Shown piece by piece: positions 6,893-32,347 of a stretch of 33,617 bases of DNA (positions within the stretch are counted from its first letter, which is position 1; every line of letters begins with the position of its first letter). The notes under the pieces were generated by a model. The model searched no databases. It had not been told where the DNA came from and was given only the letters and a program-made list of their open reading frames with translations. The translations under genes were made by a program, and so were the position numbers. The stretch comes from Acidobacteriota bacterium (lineage in GTDB: Bacteria > Acidobacteriota > UBA6911), in NCBI GenBank assembly GCA_016934555.1, contig JAFGSS010000055.1, positions 1 through 33,617 on the forward strand, read 5' to 3'.

Positions 6893-7921
6893 ATGGATGT
6901 CGATCGGGTCAGCATCAAGGACACTCTCGGGCGTGAACTGAGGGACCTGAGGATTTCGGTCACCGACCGGTGCAACTTCCGTTGCGTTTACTGCATGCCG
7001 CTCGAGCAGTACGAGTGGATCGACCGGAGGGAGATCCTCACCTTCGAGGAGATCACGCGCCTGGCCGGGCTGTTTTTGCAGTCGGGGGTCGAGGAGATCC
7101 GGCTCACCGGGGGGGAACCCCTGCTGCGGCATGGGCTGGATACCCTGGTTTCCGCCCTGGCCGGACTCGGGGGGCTCAAGGACCTTTCCCTGACGACCAA
7201 CGCCTCGCACCTGAAGGAGCACGCGGCGGGGCTGATGCGCGCGGGCATCGGCCGGGTCAACGCGAGCCTCGACACGCTCAGTCCCGCGAAATTCCGTGCC
7301 CTGACCCGGCGCGACGATCTGGCCGGCGTCCTGGAGGGGCTGCTGACCGCACGGCTCCTGGGCTTCGATCCGATCAAGATCAATTCCGTGATCCAGCGCG
7401 GCGTCAACGACGACGACATCCTCCCCCTGGTCGAATTCTCGAGGCAGAACGGGTTCTGGCTCCGGTTCATCGAGTTCATGGATGTGGGGAACTCCAACCA
7501 CTGGGTATCGGAAAGGATGATGCCCAAGGGGGAGATCCTGGATCTCATCCACGCACGGTATCCCCTCGAGGAGGCCGGGAGAACCGACCCGAGCGCGCCC
7601 GCGGTCAATTACCGGTATGCCGACCGGAAGGGCAACATCGGCGTCATCGCCTCGGTGACCGAGCCCTTCTGTGCCGGCTGCACGCGCGCGCGCCTGACGG
7701 CCGACGGCAAGCTCGTCCTCTGCCTCTTTTCCGACCGGAGTCTCGATCTCAAGCGGCTTCTGCGCGGGGGCGCCGGTGACAGGGAAATCCTGGACACCAT
7801 CCGGTCCGCCTGGGAAGCGAGGACCGACCGTTACTCCGAGGAGCGCCTGGAGGCGATGAACGCGGGGGATTACGAGCCCGGGTCGCACCGGAAGATCGAG
7901 ATGATCCGCATCGGCGGCTAG
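6893..7921 (+). CDS. moaA: GTP 3',8-cyclase MoaA
   Basis: A 342-residue radical-SAM enzyme that makes 3',8-cyclo-7,8-dihydro-GTP from GTP, the first committed step of molybdopterin synthesis for Mo and W enzymes. The N-terminal [4Fe-4S]/SAM motif CNFRCVYC (Cys27, 31, 34), the RLTGGEPLLR segment near 80, the C-terminal cluster CAGCTRARLTADGKLVLC (Cys260, 263, 277) that binds GTP, and a C-terminus SHRKIEMIRIGG with the usual terminal Gly-Gly are all present. Length is normal. The start is preceded by a weak GGAG 11 to 14 bases upstream. It is alone here; moaC, moaE, moeA and the others are not in the window. The AOR-family enzyme at 29-31 kb is a likely consumer of the cofactor. Confidence 0.96.
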   Translation: MDVDRVSIKDTLGRELRDLRISVTDRCNFRCVYCMPLEQYEWIDRREILTFEEITRLAGLFLQSGVEEIRLTGGEPLLRHGLDTLVSALAGLGGLKDLSLTTNASHLKEHAAGLMRAGIGRVNASLDTLSPAKFRALTRRDDLAGVLEGLLTARLLGFDPIKINSVIQRGVNDDDILPLVEFSRQNGFWLRFIEFMDVGNSNHWVSERMMPKGEILDLIHARYPLEEAGRTDPSAPAVNYRYADRKGNIGVIASVTEPFCAGCTRARLTADGKLVLCLFSDRSLDLKRLLRGGAGDREILDTIRSAWEARTDRYSEERLEAMNAGDYEPGSHRKIEMIRIGG

Positions 7922-13517: not shown

Positions 13518-14888
13518 ATGGGGAAACCGGCGGGGAGAAGGGGGCTGCTGTTGTCGGTGGCCGCGGCGCTGCTGCTCGCGCTCTATGCGCGCGGGGGCGC
13601 CGGGGAACCGGGCGCAGGGGCGAAAATGGGGGACCACCCCTACGACGCCTTCGAGCCGTCCGAGCGCTGCGCTGTTTGTCACAAGGAGATCGCTCTCCAG
13701 TACGAAAAATCGGCCATGGCGCAATCGCAGGCGCTCCCCTGGGACCAGGCGGAGTATTTCAAACTGGCGCTCCCCCACACCCGGATCGAGCCCAGGGTGG
13801 CTGCGGTGGAAGCCGGATGCATTCAGTGCCACGCGCCCCAGGCCTTCCTGGCGGGGGACGTTCCGCCGCCCGAGGCGCCGAAAGCCGATCGGAAGGCCGA
13901 CGGGGTTTCCTGCGACATGTGTCACGCCATGACCGGTTTTGACGGCGAGGCCCCGGTTAACGGGAACTACGTCGTCAGCCCGGGCAAGGTCAAGCACGGT
14001 TCGCGCAAGGACGCCGCCCCCATGGGGCACGAAGCCGCGTACTCCCCACTCTTCAAGGGGGCCGAGCTGTGCGGAACCTGCCACGACGAAAGCAGTCCCT
14101 ACGGGGCCCCGGTCAAGGAGACCTACCGGGAGTGGAGTCTCGGTCCTTACCGTGAGGCGGGGATCACGTGCCTCCGCTGCCACGTTCCGGCGGCGGCGGG
14201 GAAGGCGGCCGTCATGGGGAAGGAACGGCCCGACGTGGCGCAGCACCTGTTCCAGGGCGCCTACTCCCCCGCCATGCTCCGCGGGGCGGCGACGCTGCAT
14301 ATCTACCCGGCGACGGAGGAGACGGCGGCGGGCCGGACGCTCGATATTTCGGTCGTGATCAGCAACCATCGCGCCGGCCACCGGATCCCCACGGGATCGA
14401 CGGAGGAGCGGCAACTCTGGCTCCGGCTGGAAGCGCGCGATGCGGCGGGGAAGACCTACCATATCCCGGCGGCCCCGGCCGCGGGAGATCCGGCCGAAAA
14501 GAGCTACAGCGTGACCACGAACCGGCCCGCGTGGCAGGATCTCGGCCGGATGATGGGGATCGCGGACTTCAAGGGGGTCCCGCGGGATGCGCTTCCCGAA
14601 GGGGACCGGCTGTTCCGGAAGGTGTTTCTCAACCCGCTGGGGGAGGAGACCGTTGCGCAGTGGTATGCGGCCGATACCGGAGTTTTCGACAACCGCCTGA
14701 AGCCGCTCGAGGCGGTCGTGGAGCGCTACCGCTGGGAGATACCGGAAGGCGTCGCCCATGGGGGGCTCACGATCACGGGCGCTCTCAACTACCGGAGGCT
14801 ACCGCAGTCGGTGGCCGACATGGTGAAGATCGGCCAGGTCCCCATCCTTCCGGTTGCCGCCGGGCAGGCCGTGATCCTGGTCAAATAG
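13518..14888 (+). CDS. Exported five-haem cytochrome c
   Basis: A 456-residue protein with a signal peptide (RRGLLLSVAAALLLALYARGGAGE). It has five CxxCH haem-attachment motifs: CAVCH (about 51), CIQCH (about 101), CDMCH (about 132), CGTCH (about 190) and CLRCH (about 225). The haem region resembles the cytochrome c554/multihaem family. After it, a haem-free C-terminal half (about 255-456) begins LDISVVISNHRAGHRIPTGSTEERQLWLRLEA, a beta-rich domain seen in other multihaem cytochromes. It probably transfers electrons in the periplasm or at the cell surface; the partner is unknown. It starts 85 bases after the peroxiredoxin stop. GTG 13509 is an in-frame alternative start, with only a poly-G tract upstream of either. 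The DUF123 gene follows after 17 bases. Confidence 0.9.
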   Translation: MGKPAGRRGLLLSVAAALLLALYARGGAGEPGAGAKMGDHPYDAFEPSERCAVCHKEIALQYEKSAMAQSQALPWDQAEYFKLALPHTRIEPRVAAVEAGCIQCHAPQAFLAGDVPPPEAPKADRKADGVSCDMCHAMTGFDGEAPVNGNYVVSPGKVKHGSRKDAAPMGHEAAYSPLFKGAELCGTCHDESSPYGAPVKETYREWSLGPYREAGITCLRCHVPAAAGKAAVMGKERPDVAQHLFQGAYSPAMLRGAATLHIYPATEETAAGRTLDISVVISNHRAGHRIPTGSTEERQLWLRLEARDAAGKTYHIPAAPAAGDPAEKSYSVTTNRPAWQDLGRMMGIADFKGVPRDALPEGDRLFRKVFLNPLGEETVAQWYAADTGVFDNRLKPLEAVVERYRWEIPEGVAHGGLTITGALNYRRLPQSVADMVKIGQVPILPVAAGQAVILVK

Positions 14889-21680: not shown

Positions 21681-21825
21681 GATGGCCGCCCGTTGCCGGC
21701 CATTCTACCACACTCCCGCTGCTTCCCGATTCCCTCCGGCCCCCGGCCAGGATCAATTCAAATCTTGTCTATAGTTGCGGCCCCCGGGCGACGATAAGCC
21801 GTTGTATCTATAGGAATGCCGAAAA

Positions 21826-24693
21826 ATGCAAAATGCCTTCAAACTGGAAACCGCGCTCCTCGAGTCCGATTTCAAATTGGCTCCCAGGTTCGGCTACAAC
21901 ATGCGCCTGATCGTGCCCGCGGCCCTCTACCTCTGCCTCTACGCGGCCCTGCTCTGGGGGGCGGGGGCTCTGGGAGTGTCCGCGTTCACGGGGGAATTCG
22001 GCCTCCATGCCGGCTTGAACGTGGGGGTTCTCCTGTTCTGCGGCCTGTGGTACGCCCCGGTGGTGGCCGCCGCCACCTTCGTGCATTCCTTCTGGTTCCA
22101 CGACCCCGCCTTTTCCGGCGCCTGGGCCCTCGGTTGCGGCGCCGCGGTCTTCCTGGTGGAAATCGGGGCGGCCGCCCTCCTGGGGCGGTTTCTGTCTGGG
22201 CACCGCGCGACGCTGCACCGGGGGAGGGACCTCGGCATTTTCCTGGCGGTCTCGGCGGGCGGGGCGGTAGCGTGCGCCGCGGCCACCATCCTGCCGGGGG
22301 CCCTCGCCGCCCCGGGCGAATGGAGCCGCCTGCGGGTGGAGTTCGCGCCGCCGCTGGTGGGTTACGCCTGCGGGCTGCTCCTGCTGCCCCCCCTGCTGCT
22401 GATCCATCTCGGTCCCCGGCTGCAGACGGCGCTGTTCGGGGTCAGGGAGGAACGGGCCGGCTTCATCCGGCCGCTGCGCATGGACCGGCGCGGCACCCTC
22501 TTCATCCTGGCCTTCCTCTGCCTCGCGGGCGCCGCCCTCTGGTTCGTCTTTGCCCGCCCGGCGCCCGACAGGCTGTATGCCTTCATCCTCGTATCGGCCC
22601 CCCTGGTGTGGGTCGCGGTCCGACGGGGGATGGAGGGGACGAGCCTTGCAGTCCCCCTCATCGGTGCCGCCTTCCTGGTGTTGCTGGCGACGGGGGACAC
22701 GGCGCCGGCCGCCGGCTGGGGCCTGCTCGCGATCCTGTGCGTGGCTTCGGCGAACGCCCACGCGATCGCGGTCGGGATCACGCGCACGCGTTCGATCGAG
22801 GGGGAGATGGAGCGGCGGAACGCCATTCTGGACGCGGTGAGCCATGCGGCCCGCCAGTTCCTCGGGAACACGGGGTGGGAGACCGGGGCCCGCGACGTGA
22901 TCCGGAGGCTCGGGGAGGCGACCGCGGTGACGCGCGTCTACCTGATGGACAACCGGACTCCCGACCTGGGGGGGCAGGTGGGGGACGCCTGCCGCTACGA
23001 GTGGGAGAGTTCGACGCGCGCGGCCGAGGAGGGGGACCGCAAGGTCCTGGACCTGATCCGGAGCCAGATGATCGACGAAATGTCCGATCGGTTTTACGGC
23101 GGGCACCCGGTCGTATTCCACGCGCGGGACGTCGAGAGGAAGAAGAGGGAGATCCTCGAGGCGATGGGGATCCGTTCGGGCGTCATCGTCCCGATGTTCG
23201 TCGACGGGCAGCTGTGGGGCTGCATCGGGCTGGAGCAGTGTTTCGTCGACCGGGAATGGCCCCTTTCGGAAATCGACGGGCTGAGGATGGCGGGACAGAT
23301 TCTGGGCACCATCATCGCCAGTGTCCGGGTGGAGCAGCAGTTCCGGCAGCTGACGGGCAACATCCAGGCGGTGTTCTGGATATCGGCCCCGGACGGCCGG
23401 GCCAAGCAGTACGTGAGCCCGGGTTACGAGGAGGTGTGGGGGCGGACGTGCGCGAGCCTGCAGCGCAACCCCTCCTCCTGGATCCAGGCGATCCATCCCG
23501 AGGACCGGGGCAGGATATCGGAGGCCCTCATCCGGCAGGGGTGGAACGAGTACGACGAGGAATACCGCGTGGAGCGTCCCGACGGGTCGATCCGCTGGAT
23601 CCACGACCGGGCGTTCCCGGTCCGCGACCAGGCGGGGAAGGTGGAGCGCGTGGTCGGCATTGCCGAGGATGTCACCCGGCAGAAGAAGACCGAGGAGAGC
23701 CTGCGCGCGGCCACCGTGCTCCTTTCGAGCCTGATCGACCACCTCCATTCGGGCGTCGTGGTCGAGGACGAGGAGCGCAGGATCACCCACGTCAACCAGT
23801 CCTTCACCGACATGTTCCGGGTCCCCGTCGCGCGCGGCTCGCTGCTCGGGATCGACAGCCGCCTCCTTTTCGCCCAGACGGCCGAGTTCGCCGGGAGGAT
23901 CGAATCCGTTATCCGGGAGGCGGAGCCGGTGCTCGGGGAGGAGATCGTCTGGCAGGAGCGCGCCTTCCTGCGCAATTACGTGCCGCTTTCGATCGACGCC
24001 GGCAACCGCTATCACCTGTGGCAGTACCAGGATGTCACCGCCAGCCGCCGGGCGGAGGAGCAGATCAAGGCGTCGCTCAAGGAGAAGGAGGTCCTGCTCA
24101 AGGAGATCCACCACCGCGTCAAGAACAACCTCCAGATCATCTCGAGCCTCCTGAACCTGCAGAGCGCCGAGATCGAGGACCCCAAGGCGAACCAGAAGTT
24201 CAAGGAGAGCCAGGACCGGGTGAAGGCCATGGCGCTGATCCACGAGCGGCTGTACCAGTCCAGCGACCTGGCCAAGATCGATTTCTCCGGCTACGTGCGC
24301 AGCCTCACGGGGCACCTGGTCCGGTCCTACCGGGTCAACGCGTCGGCCATCCGCCTGAACCTCGAGGTGGAATCGGTGCCGATGAGTCTTGATGTCGCCA
24401 TCCCCTGCGGCCTCGTCATCAACGAACTGGTGTCGAACGCGTTCAAGTATGCCTTCCCGGAGGGGAAAAACGGGTGCATCGACGTCCGTTTCTACGCCGG
24501 GAACGACGGGGGGCTGAATCTCGCGGTCCGGGACGACGGCGTCGGATGCGCCCCGGACTGGAACCCCGACCGGTGCGACTCCCTCGGGCTGAAGCTGGTC
24601 CGGAGCCTGACCGAACAGCTGGGGGGGACGATCGAATTCCGGAGCCGCAGCGGGTTCGCCTGCGCGATCGCGATCCCCCATGCCAGGACATAA
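21826..24693 (+). CDS. Membrane sensor histidine kinase: MASE1-like, GAF, PAS, PAS, HisKA_2, HATPase
   Basis: A 955-residue sensor. Residues about 25-325 hold eight or so hydrophobic segments resembling a MASE1 integral-membrane sensor. A GAF domain follows (about 335-505), then a PAS_3-type domain (about 507-620, ending [19 protein letters not shown]) and a second PAS (about 625-740). [20 protein letters not shown] carries the phosphoacceptor (His762/763) of the HisKA_2/HWE class. The catalytic domain shows [15 protein letters not shown] (N box, about 865), [10 protein letters not shown] (about 903) and [14 protein letters not shown] (about 921). The ligand is unknown; MASE1, GAF and PAS can respond to small molecules, redox or light. 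The REC-GGDEF-EAL gene starts 54 bases downstream and is the obvious phosphotransfer partner. The ATG has a weak AGGAATG upstream. Confidence 0.9.
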
Positions 24694-24747
24694 TTCTTCG
24701 GGCGCCGGGCGGGAACGCCGGGGCGCCGCATACCAAGGATTGGAACG

Positions 24748-26862
24748 ATGACGGATACAGCGCCTGCGAAGCCCAGACGGATCCTGGTCGTCGAGGATGA
24801 AACGATCGTGTCCATGGACATCCAGAACAGCCTCAGGCTGCTCGGGTACGAGGTGGTCGGGGCCGCGACCTCGGGCCCGGAAGCGATCGGCAAGGCGGAC
24901 CGGACGATGCCCGATCTCGTGCTGATGGACATCATCCTGAAGGGGGAGATGGACGGCGTCGAGGCCGCCCGGACCATTCACGCCCGGCTGGGCATACCGG
25001 TGATTTTTCTGACCGCGTGTGCCGATGAAAAGACGCTCGAGCGGGCCAAGGTGACGGAACCCTTCGGCTACATGATCAAGCCGTTCGAGGAGCGGGAACT
25101 GCACAGCCATATCGAGATCGCCCTCTATCGCCATCGCATGGAGAAGAAACTGCGGGAGAGCGAGGAGCGCTATTCGCTCGCCACCCAGGGGGCCAACGAC
25201 GGACTCTGGGACTGGAACCTGCGGTCGAAGGAGATCTATTTCTCCCCGCGCTGGAAATCGATGCTGGGCTACCGGGACCTTGAGATCGGAGTCTCCCCCC
25301 TGGACTGGTTCGGCAGGATCCACCCGGCCGACAGGGAGCAGGTGGAAAAGAACGTCGCCCGGCATCTGCAGGGGGAAACCGGCCATTTCGAGAGCGAGTA
25401 CCGCATCCTGGACGCTAAGGGGGCCTACCGCTGGGTCCTCTGCCGGGGGCTGGCGAGCCGGGACGGCGACGGCAAGGCCCACCGGATCGCCGGGTCGCAG
25501 ACGGACATCACCGACCGCAAGGTCTACAACCCCCTTACCGGGCTTCCCAACCGGCTCCTGTTCCTGGACCGGGTGGAGCATGCGCTGCGGCGGACGCGTG
25601 ACAACGCCCGTTCCTTCGGCATCGCCGTGGTGGAGATCGGCGAGGTCAAGACGGTCGCCGGCAGCCTCGGGCACGTGGTCGCCGACGGATTGATCGTGCA
25701 GGCGGCGCGCAGGATCCAGGAGTGTGTTTCGGCTGAGGACACGGTAGCCCATTTCGGCAATGACGACTTCGTGCTCCTGATCGAGGAGGCGTCGGACGGC
25801 AAGCAGGCGGCCCTGGCCGCCTCCCGGCTGCACCGGGAGCTCTCCCGGGCCTTCCTGGTCGACGGCCAATCGATCTACGCCACCACCCATATCGGCATCA
25901 CCGTCTGCACCCGGGACCACCTCCATCCGGACGAAATGATCCGGGACGCCTACGTCGCCATGCAGCGGGCGAAGGGGGGGGGGAAGGGACGGTTCGAGAT
26001 CTTTGACGCGAAAATGAGGTCTTCGGCCGTCGCCCGCCTGAAAATGGAATCCGACCTGCGCCGGGCCCTGGAAAGCGGACAGTTCCGGGTCCACTACCAG
26101 CCGATCACCGAACTGAAGACGGGGCGGCTGGTCGGTTTCGAGGCGCTGGTCCGCTGGCAGCGGAGCGAGGAGATGATGTTTCCCAAGGATTTCCTCGCCA
26201 TCGCCGAGTCGACCGACATCCTGCTGCCGCTGGAGAGCTGGGTGCTCCGGGAATCGTGCCGGCAGATGGCCCGCTGGAGACTCCCCGGCGGGGAGGAGCT
26301 GACCATCAACGTCAACCTCTGCCCCGGGCATTACACCGATCCCAACCTCATCCGGGAACTGGACGACGTGCTGCGCGCGACGGGACTGAACCCGCGCCGC
26401 CTGAGCCTGGAGATCACCGAAAGCGCCCTCATGGAAAACTCGGAAGCGGTCTTCCGGACCCTCTCGGACATCAAGGCCATGAACATCCGGCTCCACATGG
26501 ACGACTTCGGCACGGGGTACTCCTCGCTCAGCTACCTGAACCGCTTTCCGATTGACAGCCTCAAGATCGACCGTTCCTTCGTCGGGAACCTGGGGCTGTG
26601 CGAGGAAACCTGGAAGATCGTGCAGGCGATCGTGAACCTGGGGCGGAACCTGGACATGGAACTGATCGCCGAGGGGATCGAGAACGTCATGCAGCTGCGG
26701 ATGCTCCAGTCGCTGCACTGCCATTTCGGCCAGGGATACTACTTCTCCAAGGCGATGGCGCCCCGGGATGTGGACGCCCTGCTGGCGGGCCCCCTCCCCT
26801 GGATGGTGCTGTTCGAAACCGGCGCCGTCCGGGCCTTCCCGCGCGCGGCCGAGGCCGGCTGA
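24748..26862 (+). CDS. Response regulator: REC-PAS-degenerate GGDEF-EAL (predicted c-di-GMP phosphodiesterase)
   Basis: A 704-residue cytoplasmic regulator. The receiver domain (12-125) has VVEDE, phosphoacceptor Asp61 in LVLMDIIL, FLTA and the Lys in YMIKPFEE. A PAS domain lies at about 130-258 (SLATQGANDGLWDWNLRSKEIYFSPRWKSMLGY). The GGDEF domain (about 260-415) starts NPLTGLPNRLLFLDRV but its signature reads HFGNDDF instead of GGDEF, so cyclase activity is unlikely; it may sense GTP. The EAL domain (about 435-690) keeps the metal and catalytic residues: FEALVRW, INVNLC, LEITESAL, MDDFGTGYSSL, DSLKIDRSF, IAEGIEN and GQGYYFSKAM. The net output should be c-di-GMP hydrolysis under control of the upstream kinase, plausibly affecting motility or attachment. 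Confidence 0.92.
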   Translation: MTDTAPAKPRRILVVEDETIVSMDIQNSLRLLGYEVVGAATSGPEAIGKADRTMPDLVLMDIILKGEMDGVEAARTIHARLGIPVIFLTACADEKTLERAKVTEPFGYMIKPFEERELHSHIEIALYRHRMEKKLRESEERYSLATQGANDGLWDWNLRSKEIYFSPRWKSMLGYRDLEIGVSPLDWFGRIHPADREQVEKNVARHLQGETGHFESEYRILDAKGAYRWVLCRGLASRDGDGKAHRIAGSQTDITDRKVYNPLTGLPNRLLFLDRVEHALRRTRDNARSFGIAVVEIGEVKTVAGSLGHVVADGLIVQAARRIQECVSAEDTVAHFGNDDFVLLIEEASDGKQAALAASRLHRELSRAFLVDGQSIYATTHIGITVCTRDHLHPDEMIRDAYVAMQRAKGGGKGRFEIFDAKMRSSAVARLKMESDLRRALESGQFRVHYQPITELKTGRLVGFEALVRWQRSEEMMFPKDFLAIAESTDILLPLESWVLRESCRQMARWRLPGGEELTINVNLCPGHYTDPNLIRELDDVLRATGLNPRRLSLEITESALMENSEAVFRTLSDIKAMNIRLHMDDFGTGYSSLSYLNRFPIDSLKIDRSFVGNLGLCEETWKIVQAIVNLGRNLDMELIAEGIENVMQLRMLQSLHCHFGQGYYFSKAMAPRDVDALLAGPLPWMVLFETGAVRAFPRAAEAG

Positions 26863-27026: not shown

Positions 27027-27992
27027 ATGGGTTGGGAATACAGCGAAAAGACCAAGCAGCTTTTCATGGACGCGGTGCACGGCAAGCCCGGCACCCACCT
27101 GGGCGAGATCGAAAATCCGGACGGTCTGGGGGAGCACGGATCGATCGCCTGCGGGGACGCGATGCGGTTCACCTTCCGCGTCCGGCGCCACCCCAGCGAC
27201 CCGACCCTGGACGTCATCACCGAAGCGAGATACCTGACGTTCGGGTGCACCTCCGCCATCGCCGCTTCCGAGGCGCTCTGCGACATCATCGAGAAGGGGG
27301 AGTACACCCCGATCTCCGCGCTCCAGATCCAGAACAGCGACATCGTGACCTACCTCGAGGGGCTCCCCGAACAGAAGATCCACTGCTCCGTCATGGGGGC
27401 CGAAGCGCTGGAGGCGGCGGTCTTCAACTGGGCCCAGCGGCGCGGCGTGGACCTGAAAGCACTGGGCATCGATCTTCATGACCAGGAGACCGAAGAGGGA
27501 CGGGTGGTGTGCAAGTGCTTCTCCCTGACGGAGCCCTACATCCTGCGCAAGATCAAGGAACTCAACCTTCGCACCATCCCCCAGATAACGAGCGCCATCA
27601 AGGCGGGCGGCGCGTGCGGCAGCTGCCACCATGTCCCCGGGGGGCTGCAGGACCTGCTCGACCGGGTCTGGCAGGGGAAGCTCCCGGCTGCGGCGGGGAG
27701 CGCGGCCGGGTCGCCCCTGCCGCTGGTCTCCATCGATGCGCCGGCGCCGGCCGATTTTTCCCCCTACCAGTTCTCCAAGAAGGTGGAAAAGGTGGTGGAC
27801 GAGTATATCCGGCCCTCCCTGAAAATGGACGGGGGCGATGTCGAGATCGTGGACATCAAGGGAACCATGGTCTACTGCCGGCTCAAGGGCGCCTGCGCCA
27901 ACTGCGCGGGGGCGGCCCAGACGCTGAAGATGATGGTGGAGCGGATCCTGAAGGAACAGGTGGATGAGCGGATCCGGGTGATCGAGGTCTGA
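27027..27992 (+). CDS. nifU: Fe-S cluster assembly scaffold NifU (three-domain)
   Basis: A 321-residue scaffold on which clusters are built before transfer to apoproteins. The N-terminal IscU-like domain has its three ligands (Cys42 in IACGD, Cys74 in TFGCTS, Cys120 in IHCSV). The central domain has the permanent [2Fe-2S] pattern CKC...GACGSC (Cys162, 164, 197, 200), as in bacterioferritin-associated ferredoxin. A linker of about 30 residues leads to the C-terminal NifU/Nfu domain (about 250-321) with CANC (Cys290/293). All nine expected cysteines are present. The nifS gene starts 6 bases after the stop. No nitrogenase genes are seen, so it more likely serves general Fe-S assembly, for example for the AOR/Fe-S pair, MoaA and others, as in several anaerobes. 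Confidence 0.95.
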   Translation: MGWEYSEKTKQLFMDAVHGKPGTHLGEIENPDGLGEHGSIACGDAMRFTFRVRRHPSDPTLDVITEARYLTFGCTSAIAASEALCDIIEKGEYTPISALQIQNSDIVTYLEGLPEQKIHCSVMGAEALEAAVFNWAQRRGVDLKALGIDLHDQETEEGRVVCKCFSLTEPYILRKIKELNLRTIPQITSAIKAGGACGSCHHVPGGLQDLLDRVWQGKLPAAAGSAAGSPLPLVSIDAPAPADFSPYQFSKKVEKVVDEYIRPSLKMDGGDVEIVDIKGTMVYCRLKGACANCAGAAQTLKMMVERILKEQVDERIRVIEV

Positions 27993-27998
27993 CGGGAC

Positions 27999-29219
27999 AT
28001 GGACATCATCTATCTCGACAACAACGCGACGACGCGGATCGCCCCCGAAGTGTACGAGGCGATGATCCCGTTTTTCACCGACGACTATTTCAACCCCAGT
28101 TCCATGTACGAGCCCGCCCGGAGGACGGGTCAGGCGGTGGAGGCCGCACGGCGGACGATCGCGGACTGCCTGGGCGGGACGGCTCCCGGCGAGATCCTCT
28201 TCACCGGGTGCGCGACCGAGAGCAACAACACCGCGATCCGGGGGGCCGCGCGCGCGAACCCTAACCGCAGGCACATCATCACCACCACGGTCGAACACCC
28301 GGCCGTGCTGGAGGTCTGCCGGGAGATGGAACGGAGCGGGCACCCGGTCGCCTACGTGGGGGTGGACCGGGACGGGCAAATCGACCTGCCGGGGTTCATC
28401 CGCGCACTGACGCCCGAAACCCTGCTGGTATCGATCATGCACGCCAACAACGAGACCGGCTTGGTGTTCCCCATCGAGCGGCTGTCGCGCATCGTCAAGG
28501 AGACCGACCCGGGCATCCTCTTTCATACCGATGCGACCCAGACGGTAGGGAAACTGCCCATCGACATGGTACGGGGGCTCCCCTACGTGGATCTCCTGTC
28601 GTTTTCCGGGCACAAGCTGCATGCGCCCAAGGGGATCGGGGCCCTTTACCTCCGCCGCGGCACGCGCTGCCGCCCCTTTCTGCTCGGGGGGCACCAGGAA
28701 TCGGGCAGGCGGGGGGGGACCGAGAACGTCCCCTACATCGTGGGACTCGGCAGGGCCCTCGGCCTGGCGACAGAAACCGCGCACGAAGACGAGGCCAGGA
28801 TCGGGCGGTTGCGGGACCGGCTGGAGCGGGGCCTGGTGGAAAGGATCCCGTCGGTCGAGGTCAACGGGGGCGGGGGGGTGCGGTTGCCGAATACCCTGAA
28901 CATTTCCTTCCACTACATCGAGGGGGAGGGGATGCTGTTTCAGCTCAGCGAGTACGGGATCTGCGCCTCGAGCGGGTCGGCCTGCACGTCCGGGTCGCTC
29001 GAGCCCTCGCACGTGCTCCGGGCGATGAAGGTGCCGTTCACGGCCGTCCACGGCTCCGTCCGCTTCAGCCTGAGCCGCTACACCACCGAAGCCGAGATCG
29101 ACCGGGTGCTCGAGGTGTTTCCCGGCATCGTCGCCAACCTGCGCACCCTCTCCCCCTACTGGGACAACGCGCGCAACGCGCCGCGCCCCGACGCGGTCGG
29201 GATGATCGAATCGCACTAA
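27999..29219 (+). CDS. nifS: Cysteine desulfurase NifS
   Basis: A 406-residue PLP enzyme that takes sulfur from L-cysteine as an enzyme persulfide and hands it to NifU. It begins IYLDNNATTRIAPEV. Next come TGCATESNN, TVEHPAVLEVC, MHANNETGLVFPI, DATQTVGKLP and the PLP lysine in SFSGHKLHAPKG (Lys206). GTENVPYIVGLG and the active-site loop SSGSACTSGSLEPSHVL (Cys329) follow. It is group I, NifS/IscS-like. A 6-base gap to nifU implies coupling. Such enzymes can also act on selenocysteine or deliver Se for selenophosphate synthesis, relevant to the selenoprotein in this window, but that is speculation. The stop codon overlaps the T-tract of the opposing terminator. Confidence 0.96.
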   Translation: MDIIYLDNNATTRIAPEVYEAMIPFFTDDYFNPSSMYEPARRTGQAVEAARRTIADCLGGTAPGEILFTGCATESNNTAIRGAARANPNRRHIITTTVEHPAVLEVCREMERSGHPVAYVGVDRDGQIDLPGFIRALTPETLLVSIMHANNETGLVFPIERLSRIVKETDPGILFHTDATQTVGKLPIDMVRGLPYVDLLSFSGHKLHAPKGIGALYLRRGTRCRPFLLGGHQESGRRGGTENVPYIVGLGRALGLATETAHEDEARIGRLRDRLERGLVERIPSVEVNGGGGVRLPNTLNISFHYIEGEGMLFQLSEYGICASSGSACTSGSLEPSHVLRAMKVPFTAVHGSVRFSLSRYTTEAEIDRVLEVFPGIVANLRTLSPYWDNARNAPRPDAVGMIESH

Positions 29220-29279: not shown

Positions 29280-31382
29280 TCAGCTCAGCTTGCCCTGTTT
29301 CTGGAGGGCGTCCGCCACCTTTTTCAGCCCCATCTTTTCGAGGGTCTCCCGCGTGGCGATCCCGGTCGCGGGGCTGTACCCCTCGAACTTGTAGAAGCGG
29401 GTCTTCCAGTCCTCGACCTTGGCGCGGTCCAGCTTGCGGCCGGCGCCGGTGGCGTAGGTCCACTTGCCGTCGACCACCATCGGCTGGATGCTGCCCCGGG
29501 TGGGCTGGTCATAGATGTAGTCGGGGAAAACCTCCATGTCCCGCGTCCGGCCCTGCAGCGCCCAGATGGCCCGGTCCAGGGTAAAGATCTTGTGCCCCAG
29601 CTCCATGTAATCGGCGAAGGTCTTGTTCTGGCCCGTCACCGCGTTCCAGAACTTCGGCTCCGCGTTCGGGGTGGCCCCCCGCCGGTCGGCGGAGTTGTTG
29701 GTGATGCACTGCGGCCAGCGCCAGCCGCAGAAGCCGCCCGCGCCGATCCAGAACTTTTCGTAGTGCTTGACCCAGGCTACCTGCTTGACCTTGGAATCCG
29801 AATAGATCCCCGTCGGCCCCTCGCCGTAATCGACCAGGTAACGGTCGTCCTGGTAGGGGACCATTGCCTCGGCGTAAAGCTTGGAGGCCTGCTCGGCGTC
29901 GAGGTAGGGGTTGCCCGACTGCGCCATCCAATGCAGCGGGTAGTTGGACATCTGGTGCAGCATCAGGTCGCGCTCCCCCAGGATGGAGCCGTAGCCCCAT
30001 TCCACCTGGGTGGCGGAATCGTAATGCTCCTGGGTCCCGTAGTAGGTCAGCTTCACGAGGCCGCTCGAGACGTCTTTCTGGTAGCGCCCGAGCTTCTCCG
30101 CCATGCGGGCCGCCCCCTCGGCCGCCAGCGCGCCGAGCGGACCCTCGCGCAGGGCGATGGTCCGGAACATGGTCTCGTGATAGGCGTAGCTTCCCGAGGG
30201 GGGCAGCTCGAAATCGATCTGCTTCCCCTTCCCGATGACGCCTTCGCGGACCAGGGCCTCGATGTAGCCGCGGGTGGCCATCACCTGCCAGTGGCCGAGG
30301 CCGTAGCGGTGCATGAGGTCGTTGGCCTGGCGCGTCAGCTTCTGGCTCAGTGCCGAGGGCATGGCGTTCGGGTCCGGCTTGCGGCCGAAGCCGCCGAACA
30401 TGCCGCCGCCGCCGACGTTGGCCACCATGGTCCCGGCGCACACCGCCTCGTTGCTGTCGGCGCTGGCCAGGCGCATCTTGCACCCCCTGGGGCAGGAAGC
30501 GCAGGCGGCCGCGCGCGCGGGCACCCGGTTCGGCCCGCCGTTGGTGACGTTGCCGCCGCTCGGGGCGCCGTTGATCAGGGAATAACCGCTTCCTTCGAAG
30601 ATTTCGGCGTCGCGCGGGTTATCCACGTCCCACTGGAACTGGCGGAACCAGAGGCGGGCGTCCATGAACGCCTTCGGGTCGGCGATCGGGACGCTCCCCG
30701 TGCCGAGGAAGCTGATGGCCTTCAGGTTCTTGGACCCGAAGACGCCGCCGAAGCCGCAGAGGGCGGCCTGGGAGCCCGGCCCGTGAAGCAGGGCGGCCAG
30801 GCGGCTCTTGCGTTCGCCCGCCGGGCCGCAGGTCACGACGGCCGGGATCTGGGTGGTGTAGCAGCTCTGGGCCAGTTCGGCCCATTCGCCCCGGCGCAGC
30901 CCGGGGACGGCGCGGCGGGAGATCTCCTGCTGCGCGTCCCAGGTGTCCATCCCCCAGACTCCGTTGGTGGCGTCTTCGATCTTCACCTTGTCGTTGACGA
31001 CATCGATGTAGACCGGATTTTCCGAGGCGCCTTCCACGACGATGCCGTCCCAGCCGGCAAACTTCATCTGCGCGGTGAAGCGGCCGCCGAAGTTGCTGTG
31101 GCCGAACCATTCGATCGGGTAGAGCATGGGGCCCAGGCCCTGGACCTCGCACCGCCCGCTCCCGGGCATGAAGGTGCCCGAGAAGGGGGAGGCCATCATG
31201 ATGATGAGGTTGCGGGGATCAAAGGCCTCGAACGGGAGCTGGTCGCCGACCAGGTCGAAGAAGACGGCCGAGCCGATGCCGTGGCCGCCTCCGAATTCCA
31301 GGTATTTCTCCGTGGGGAGGGTGCTGATCTGTTTGTTCGTCAGATTGACTCTTAAAATCTTACCGGTATATCCGCCTGGCAT
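29280..31382 (-). CDS. Aldehyde ferredoxin oxidoreductase family enzyme, YdhV-like
   Basis: A 700-residue tungsten- or molybdenum-pterin enzyme of the AOR family. The N-terminal domain (GGYTGKILRVNLTNKQISTLPTEKYLEFGGGHGIGS ... GWDGIVVEGASENPVYIDV) is the AOR N-domain binding the bis-pterin. CASCPRGC (Cys294, 297, 301) provides cluster ligands, with a later Cys (GFCGW or WPQC region) as probable fourth. The length and the C-terminal YKFEGYSPATGIATRETLEKMGLKKVADAL fit E. coli YdhV (700 residues) as I recall it. Classical aldehyde AORs are about 600 residues, and BamB of benzoyl-CoA reductase is another relative. The substrate is unknown. There is no signal peptide, although the partner has a Tat signal. 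It lies 12 bases after the Fe-S gene with an AAGGAGGAGA ribosome-binding site. Confidence 0.92.
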   Translation of the reverse strand: MPGGYTGKILRVNLTNKQISTLPTEKYLEFGGGHGIGSAVFFDLVGDQLPFEAFDPRNLIIMMASPFSGTFMPGSGRCEVQGLGPMLYPIEWFGHSNFGGRFTAQMKFAGWDGIVVEGASENPVYIDVVNDKVKIEDATNGVWGMDTWDAQQEISRRAVPGLRRGEWAELAQSCYTTQIPAVVTCGPAGERKSRLAALLHGPGSQAALCGFGGVFGSKNLKAISFLGTGSVPIADPKAFMDARLWFRQFQWDVDNPRDAEIFEGSGYSLINGAPSGGNVTNGGPNRVPARAAACASCPRGCKMRLASADSNEAVCAGTMVANVGGGGMFGGFGRKPDPNAMPSALSQKLTRQANDLMHRYGLGHWQVMATRGYIEALVREGVIGKGKQIDFELPPSGSYAYHETMFRTIALREGPLGALAAEGAARMAEKLGRYQKDVSSGLVKLTYYGTQEHYDSATQVEWGYGSILGERDLMLHQMSNYPLHWMAQSGNPYLDAEQASKLYAEAMVPYQDDRYLVDYGEGPTGIYSDSKVKQVAWVKHYEKFWIGAGGFCGWRWPQCITNNSADRRGATPNAEPKFWNAVTGQNKTFADYMELGHKIFTLDRAIWALQGRTRDMEVFPDYIYDQPTRGSIQPMVVDGKWTYATGAGRKLDRAKVEDWKTRFYKFEGYSPATGIATRETLEKMGLKKVADALQKQGKLS

Positions 31383-31394
31383 GATGTCTCCTCC

Positions 31395-32225
31395 TTATCC
31401 TTTCGCTTTGGGCGCCTGCGTGTTGGCCTTGGGCGCCTGCATCTTGGCTTTCGGTGCGCCACCGCCGAAGCCGCCCGTTCCAGGCGGTTGAATCCTGCTG
31501 TCTTCCACCAGCCCCAGCTTGAGCCAGTGCTCGTTGCGCAGGTTGACGTTGTATCCCTCGGTTTCCTGCTGGTTGGGCATTTCGGTCACGAATCTGATGG
31601 CCTTCATGGGACACGATTCCACGCACGCCTGCTTGCCGCCGATCCCCCCCTTCTCGTTCCAGTAGGGGGTGTCCAGGCAGAGGTCGCACTTGGTCGATTT
31701 GTTGATCTTGTGGTTCCATACGGTCCGGTGCGGCTGCTGCGGGCACATTTTGAGGCAGGTCTTGCAGCCGATGCACTTGTCGGTGTCGATCCTGCGGACG
31801 TTGCCGTTGGCCTCGTCGACGAAACAGGCCTGCACGGGGCAGCTCTGCACGCAGGGGGGGTACTTGCACTGGCGGCAGACGGCGATATCGAGGTCGTAGG
31901 GGAATTTGCCGAAGGAATCCTGCGTGATCTGGATGCGGGCCAGCGACAGGTTCTGCTCCCCGTAGTGGGTGAGGGAACAGGCGAGCATGCAGGTTGTGCA
32001 CCCGGTACATTTCTTGCTGTCATAGACAAGGTACCCCTTGGACGCCGGGTAGGCCTGGACCTTTTCAGGCGGCGGTGCCGACGCGGCGGTGACGGCACCG
32101 GCGGGGGTGGTGGACAAGAGGGCATCCACGGCGACCACGGTGCCGCCGGTGACCAGAAAATCGCGTCTTGTAAATTTCTTTTTGGCAGCAGCTTCCGTGC
32201 TTTCAGCTTTCTTGCCATCGGACAT
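31395..32225 (-). CDS. Tat-signal four-cluster [4Fe-4S] electron-transfer protein (YdhY/DmsB/NrfC-like)
   Basis: A 276-residue Fe-S protein. Residues 18-50 form a Tat signal (FTRRDFLVTGGTVVAVDALLSTTPAGA). Four cysteine clusters follow the DmsB/NrfC plan: CTGCTTCMLAC, CRQCKYPPCVQSC, CIGCKTCLKMC and CDLC...ACVESCP, enough for four [4Fe-4S] centres. The C-terminus ends in a Gly-rich stretch and three APKA(K/N) repeats. It would carry electrons between the AOR-family enzyme encoded just downstream and a membrane or soluble partner. The start at 32225 has AAGGAG upstream; the track version begins 26 codons earlier without a ribosome-binding site. A Tat signal on the small subunit and none on the large one suggests either co-export by hitchhiking or a signal retained in the cytoplasm or at the membrane. 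Confidence 0.93.
   Translation of the reverse strand: MSDGKKAESTEAAAKKKFTRRDFLVTGGTVVAVDALLSTTPAGAVTAASAPPPEKVQAYPASKGYLVYDSKKCTGCTTCMLACSLTHYGEQNLSLARIQITQDSFGKFPYDLDIAVCRQCKYPPCVQSCPVQACFVDEANGNVRRIDTDKCIGCKTCLKMCPQQPHRTVWNHKINKSTKCDLCLDTPYWNEKGGIGGKQACVESCPMKAIRFVTEMPNQQETEGYNVNLRNEHWLKLGLVEDSRIQPPGTGGFGGGAPKAKMQAPKANTQAPKAKG
31401..31457 (-). repeat. Three degenerate 21-bp repeats at the 3' end of the Fe-S protein gene
   Basis: Encodes APKAKMQ-APKANTQ-APKAK, a Pro/Ala/Lys-rich tail of three seven-residue units (last one partial) ending the protein. It resembles an unstructured, positively charged tether. Confidence 0.75.
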
Positions 32226-32347
32226 AGCGTTACTCCTTCGCTCGATATTAAAGAATGAAGGTCGTTTTCGGGGCAGCCCCATGAACAACCGTTGCCTTGG
32301 CATCCGCGTGCGGGTGGGCGGCTACCACTCTGAAACAAACGGGGACG

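Follow-up and report, generated by a model that had tools for sequence, protein, structure and literature searches.

Within the aldehyde oxidoreductase (AOR) family, the systems closest to the one described here are the Class V WOR enzymes, which are defined by an electron-transfer subunit (WorS) that carries a twin-arginine translocation (Tat) tag or belongs to the membrane, all of which have at least one other subunit, and whose substrate is unknown (PMC13328260, 2026). A periplasmic location was proposed for them in the same work, and YdhV, the catalytic subunit of the E. coli Ydh system, had been predicted to be periplasmic in 2014 (PMC4257093). Here we analyzed a two-gene operon, worS-worL, of an Acidobacteriota bacterium (lineage UBA6911), located on a stretch of 33,617 nucleotides (contig JAFGSS010000055.1 of assembly GCA_016934555.1; hereafter, the window). 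The operon probably encodes a two-subunit tungsten- or molybdenum-dependent, Cys-ligated oxidoreductase, exported as a folded heterodimer via the Tat signal of WorS and soluble in the periplasm. Both open reading frames were confirmed at their place, on the minus strand and in the order worS to worL:

31395..32225, minus strand: worS, 276-residue electron-transfer subunit with four [4Fe-4S] clusters (16 Cys), matched by several Pfam Fer4 / 4Fe-4S families
29280..31382, minus strand: worL, 700-residue catalytic subunit of the AOR family, of the Cys-ligated metal type and without signal peptide, assigned by AFOR_N and AFOR_C and by the trees

The window pair resembles Class V clade 41 (E. coli YdhV-YdhY and C. 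somerae CsWOR41; PMC13328260) in the Cys-ligand WorL (checked for YdhV), the four-cluster WorS with a Tat-type signal, the absence of a signal on WorL, the gene order S-L and the lack of a known substrate. It differs from this clade in its 29% identity to YdhV, in forming a separate deep clade, in lacking a third subunit gene and in the A-x-A-type end of the signal, whereas YdhY possesses a single-Arg motif and a lipobox; the host genus, in addition, has 8-25 AFOR_N matches per genome. Both AFOR domains, the four-cluster WorS and the Tat signal on WorS (judged by motif) conform to the definition of Class V, but every member of the class has one or more additional subunits encoded in its gene cluster, and S-L stand alone in the window and at the orthologous loci. 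Judging by these features, the pair can be described as a two-gene version that functions in the manner of a Class V WOR, and we do not file it as a member. The ydh-like operon of the original prediction was not recovered, as no YdhW-, X-, U- or T-like gene, or any other third gene, was found beside the window pair or its orthologs.

WorL matched both AOR-family domains of Pfam above the cut-offs (AFOR_N, PF02730, 1.8e-47; AFOR_C, PF01314, 1.4e-27). Its best curated match was YdhV (NF007354), at 241 bits against the equivalog cut-off of 868 bits; with this score and 29% identity, WorL was rejected as a YdhV equivalog, so that the supposed resemblance to YdhV stands as relationship within a common Cys-ligand clade and not as identity with the E. 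coli enzyme. The residues assigned to the metal and the cluster of WorL are encoded as follows:

30438..30440, minus strand: codon of C315, by alignment the counterpart of C336 in YdhV and C322 in BamB, both metal-ligand cysteines
30480..30503, minus strand: codons of C294-x2-C297-x3-C301, all but one of the four WorL [4Fe-4S] cluster ligands, aligned with PfAOR C288/C291/C295
29727..29729, minus strand: codon of C552, by family analogy the fourth ligand of the cluster, in an invariant column and aligned with YdhV C558

The respective cysteines of YdhV and BamB are protein ligands of the metal (PMC12096430), and the aldehyde-type GPEYE segment is absent from WorL in the alignment. The phylogeny was analyzed with a careful tree of 44 rows and a quick tree of 133 rows, which agreed with each other; long branches occur in both, and four of the reference rows were taken from printed alignments and are incomplete. 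In the 44-row tree, 31 rows including BamB, YdhV and the window protein formed one clade (100/98), nearly all members of which have a Cys at the C315 position. Nested within it, a 28-row clade (100/100), with BamB outside, comprised the YdhV subclade (100/100, stem 0.86) and the window subclade (100/100, stem 0.82), the branching order of the subclades being not settled. Relative to clade 41, of which YdhV was the sole sequence compared, WorL falls with YdhV into the 28-row clade, in a deep subclade of its own. Considering the C315 alignment, the absence of GPEYE and the tree, WorL is a Cys-ligated, non-aldehyde cousin of YdhV. By this phylogeny it is a separate deep clade, the common ground of which with YdhV and BamB is limited to the larger Cys-ligand clade; its placement either in the BamB group or in the aldehyde-AOR group was rejected by the 44-row tree. 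The comparison with YdhV, BamB and aldehyde AORs, which had been suggested as a check, thus separated WorL from the last of these.

Two alternative assignments can be weighed against these data. A PfAOR-type aldehyde oxidoreductase would agree with the overall AOR fold, aldehyde AORs being among the nearest PDB folds, but the missing GPEYE-type segment, the Cys at the ligand position, the separation of WorL from aldehyde AORs in the tree and the inactivity of the related CsWOR41L on 46 aldehydes (PMC13328260) make this option practically negligible. The second alternative, a cytoplasmic enzyme that reduces aromatic CoA esters as BamB does, is suggested by the same Cys ligand position as in BamB. 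BamBC, the class II benzoyl-CoA reductase (4z3w), likewise has an AOR fold, a protein Cys ligand to the metal and a small Fe-S partner. BamBC, however, is cytoplasmic and acts on a CoA ester, its BamC has no Tat signal, and BamB lies outside the 28-row clade of the window (100/100); BamC-I-like partners are absent from the window, and a Tat signal fits poorly with CoA substrates. We regard this alternative as highly improbable. The aromatic CoA compounds that had been suggested for activity assays would be unlikely substrates of a periplasmic enzyme. The AlphaFold model of WorL (mean predicted local distance difference test score 86.6) matched AOR, FOR, WOR5 and BamB about equally, and the fold search did not discriminate between AOR and BamB relatives.

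The four-cluster Fe-S neighbor foreseen in the original prediction was confirmed. The 16 Cys of the four WorS clusters, as well as R20, are invariant among 21 relatives, while R21 and F23 occur in at least 90% of them; the best PDB sequence match is 9mqx_E, the WorS of a bifurcating WOR, and the five best fold matches are all WorS chains. Since WorS is closest to the WorS chains docked on WorL in 9mqx, 8c0z and 6x6u, the formation of a stable S-L complex is supported. The enzymes concerned (WOR5/ASOR, AorAB and the bifurcating WOR; 6x6u, 8c0z and 9mqx), although nearest in the sequence and fold of their Fe-S subunits, differ from the window pair in being cytoplasmic and of aldehyde or sulfonate type and in lacking the Cys ligand (for 9mqx by alignment, for the others according to the literature). 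The export signal is located as follows:

32094..32225, minus strand: Tat-type signal of WorS (residues 1-44) with T19-R20-R21-D22-F23-L24 and the cleavage-like site A42-G43-A44, recognized by motif and anatomy
32154..32171, minus strand: codons of the twin-arginine motif TRRDFL (residues 19-24)

The opening sequence of WorS, MSDGKKAESTEAAAKKKFTRRDFLVTGGTVVAVDALLSTTPAGAVTAASA, is of Tat type, and the N-terminus, KKKFTRRDFLVTGGTVVAVDALLSTTPAGA followed by VTAASA, is Tat-like and includes A-G-A as a cleavage-like site. The signal is confined to this partner, as had been noticed before: the WorL frame comprises 704 codons with the conserved fold beginning at residue 4, and because it opens just four codons before the start, no signal is hidden upstream. 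RRx[FV] was present in 44 of the clade's 48 WorS in which 35 or more residues precede the first cluster; the other four include two with RRTALKF, one starting at a contig end and one fragment or exception. Pairwise identity is only about 29% across the remainder of the signal and about 65% across the first cluster region, in an ungapped comparison anchored on RR that leaves RR itself out of the count. The WorS next to aldehyde-type or BamB-like WorL begin directly with the cluster domain and have no RRx[FV], with one Bacteroidales exception. In that metagenome-assembled genome (MAG), an aldehyde-type WorL (GPEYE present, no Cys ligand) is accompanied by a WorS with YTRRHFL (L145:595-3096, plus strand). 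This is a Tat-tagged WorS from beyond the Cys-ligand branch, the branch to which Class V is described as restricted. Another WorS of the set (L039) was initially a candidate for a signal-less protein, which was rejected as a start-site error, the longer frame having RRAFV. On these sequence grounds, export of WorS is well supported.

As for the Tat machinery, the window's genome encodes TatC, and in an Anaerosolibacter MAG the genes follow the order S-L-YdhW-like-FdhD-TatA-TatC; a similar row is reported near C. somerae CsWOR41 (PMC13328260). Judged by RRx[FV] in the WorS set, by TatC and by tatA and tatC in this relative, the periplasmic co-export suggested in the original prediction is probable, whereas the accompanying opinion that the family is otherwise cytoplasmic is out of date (PMC13328260, PMC4257093). 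According to the proposed mechanism, both subunits would acquire their cofactors and assemble in the cytoplasm, and the folded S-L heterodimer would cross the membrane on the WorS signal with WorL as a hitchhiker. The precedent is provided by the [NiFe] hydrogenases HyaAB and HybOC, where the Fe-S small subunit alone bears the Tat signal and takes the catalytic subunit along (PMC10924467), although these enzymes are unrelated and the hydrogenase small subunit is tail-anchored.

It might be supposed instead that WorS alone is exported, or that its signal is a relic, and that WorL remains in the cytoplasm with another WorS or a ferredoxin. AOR-family enzymes are indeed mostly cytoplasmic (PMC13328260), the solitary YdhV of Eggerthella is predicted to be so (PMC4257093), and WorL paralogs without a neighboring WorS exist. 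Nevertheless, the twin-arginine motif is retained in nearly every WorS despite the diverging signal around it, the S and L genes are adjacent with a gap of 12 bases and remain together in nine ortholog or near-ortholog loci, and tatA and tatC stand in line with the genes in the relative mentioned; this explanation is therefore rather improbable. Returning to co-export of the heterodimer, several observations weigh against it. Heterologous CsWOR41L was purified without its WorS (PMC13328260), so that a tight S-L complex is not assured; the h-region of the window WorS is of moderate hydrophobicity and contains one Asp; some 16 of the clade's WorL, mainly from the host genus, lack a WorS neighbor, and certain members of the family may accordingly stay cytoplasmic; and no electron-transfer gene is found beside the window pair.

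The end of the signal bears on the fate of the exported enzyme. In the host genus the WorS signals mostly end in A-x-A, while several relatives and E. coli YdhY have a lipobox, which suggests a soluble product in the host genus and a lipid-anchored one in the relatives and in YdhY. After removal of the signal by signal peptidase I, the heterodimer would be a soluble periplasmic enzyme, and WorL would convert a small organic molecule, with electrons passing between its [4Fe-4S] cluster and the four clusters of WorS (five cubanes in all) and periplasmic c-type cytochromes, and thence the quinone pool. Cytochromes of the c3/NrfH type, which speak for this reading, are encoded in the genome. Co-export, solubility, the electron partner and the direction of electron flow are what we infer from the features described. 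A comparable arrangement is the tungsten formate dehydrogenase FdhAB of Desulfovibrio (1h0h, 6sdr), a two-subunit soluble periplasmic enzyme delivering electrons to c-type cytochromes; FdhAB differs in belonging to the DMSO-reductase family and in carrying the signal on the catalytic subunit.

An ordinary Class V enzyme, membrane-bound and respiratory, the third subunit of which (cytochrome b561 or a tetrahaem quinol dehydrogenase) is encoded elsewhere and is common to many S-L pairs, would also fit part of the genomic data. Outside the host genus, a cytochrome b561 gene (PF01292) often precedes S-L; elsewhere in the window's genome, two full b561-family proteins and several further cytochromes of c3/NrfH type (Cytochrom_c3_2) are encoded; and the operon of one paralog includes a tetrahaem cytochrome gene. 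In the host genus, however, the S-L pair is usually alone, no conserved third gene occurs beside any S-L pair of the window's subclade, and the signal end is of A-x-A type rather than a lipobox or tail anchor. Such an enzyme is unlikely here, and we prefer the soluble heterodimer.

The paralog operon just mentioned (L038:912-6511, minus strand, contig C7 of the same genome) encodes, besides WorS and WorL, a small secreted protein, a flavoprotein of the FAD_binding_2 family with a Tat-type signal, and a tetrahaem cytochrome resembling Cgr1. The flavoprotein is nearest to the vinylphenol reductase and flavocytochrome c models, below their cut-offs, and the Cgr1-like match is below its cut-off too. 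Judging by its gene content, this operon possibly encodes a periplasmic respiratory reductase, and it is the strongest local indication of a periplasmic respiratory context. Other paralog neighbors (URO-D proteins, an aldo/keto reductase, a cupin) gave no consistent answer as to the substrate. The window itself contains, at 13518-14888 on the plus strand, a gene for a multihaem c-type cytochrome with weak similarity to the ExtKL and MtrC/OmcA families. Outside the host genus, S-L pairs with the preceding b561 gene are often also followed by a protein of roughly 120 residues without Pfam match (Coriobacteriia, Campylobacteraceae, Shewanella abyssi); this slot directly after WorL is conserved in L080, L082, L084, L087, L094 and L099, with products of roughly 100-134 residues and no Pfam match, and its protein is possibly a dedicated chaperone or third subunit.

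Concerning the metal, the genome has two ModA-type matches, three MoeA matches and one TupABC-like set, the latter (L171) being assigned by content, with a TupA match of 204 of 400 bits, below the curated cut-off; another locus, L169, was rejected as a tungstate transporter, being a phosphate-type system. Both tungsten and molybdenum are possible. The gene of MoaA, the first enzyme of pyranopterin cofactor synthesis, is located within the window at 6893-7921 on the plus strand.

Each of the two genes is preceded by a putative ribosome-binding site:

32233..32239, minus strand (read 32239-32233): Shine-Dalgarno-like stretch GAAGGAG of worS
31388..31396, minus strand (read 31396-31388): Shine-Dalgarno-like stretch AAGGAGGAG of worL, overlapping the end of worS

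The operon is flanked by convergent NifU and NifS genes and by a divergent gene of an ArsM-like methyltransferase. NifU/NifS (27027-29219) were rejected as a part of the system, being convergent and absent beside the ortholog in G037 and beside the paralogs; since they are retained next to the ortholog in several host-genus genomes, their adjacency is apparently inherited synteny. Genes of the compared loci were called with a caller trained on each locus, as the window-trained caller fragmented genes of lower-GC genomes. Within the window, an open frame of 1638 residues at 21808-26724 on the minus strand lies antisense to a histidine kinase gene and a GGDEF/EAL gene; it was rejected as a gene, its codon usage pointing to a by-product of high GC.

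Members of the AOR family are numerous in the host genus: ten of its genomes (G000 and G029-G037) contain 8-25 AFOR_N matches each, versus 0-4 in 28 others of the class, these counts being approximate, since fragmented assemblies may split genes and other AOR types are included. All host-lineage genomes are MAGs. The window's genome has at least five AFOR_N matches in the window's clade and five WorS matches. A WorS-like gene of G000 (59% identity; G000:C70:2407-3063, minus strand) has no adjacent WorL and lies about 4 kb from a 74% paralog pair; its product is a candidate WorS for orphan WorL. In the alignment, the third cubane Cys is replaced by Asp in eleven WorL (CxxCxxxD); the subclade with this replacement comprises L040, L062, L071, L073, L075, L076, L090, L092, L116 and L072, several of which are still paired with a Tat-tagged WorS. 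Tentatively, and with somewhat less than even confidence, we suppose that the genus may possess a large diversified set of soluble two-subunit, Tat-exported, Cys-ligated W/Mo enzymes of AOR type, each serving a different substrate and sharing a periplasmic cytochrome pool, some paralogs having exchanged a cubane Cys for Asp. The literature searched yielded neither an AOR expansion in Acidobacteria nor a periplasmic branch of the family enlarged in this way.

Taken together, the original observation is correct and its interpretation largely right, although the idea had been published before: Class V WORs have been described (PMC13328260) and a periplasmic YdhV had been predicted (PMC4257093). 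The new elements are an operon reduced to two genes, a deep clade of its own, the multiplication of AOR-family enzymes in a single genus and, for one paralog, the link with a flavoprotein and a cytochrome. The proposed periplasmic group of the AOR family has no member with a known substrate or a demonstrated location. The minimal two-gene version, without neighboring chaperone or anchor, would be a simple system for studying the proposed export of a bis-pyranopterin AOR-family enzyme on the Tat signal of its partner, and the paralog set, including the one in the context of a flavin reductase and a tetrahaem cytochrome, offers concrete leads to the substrates.

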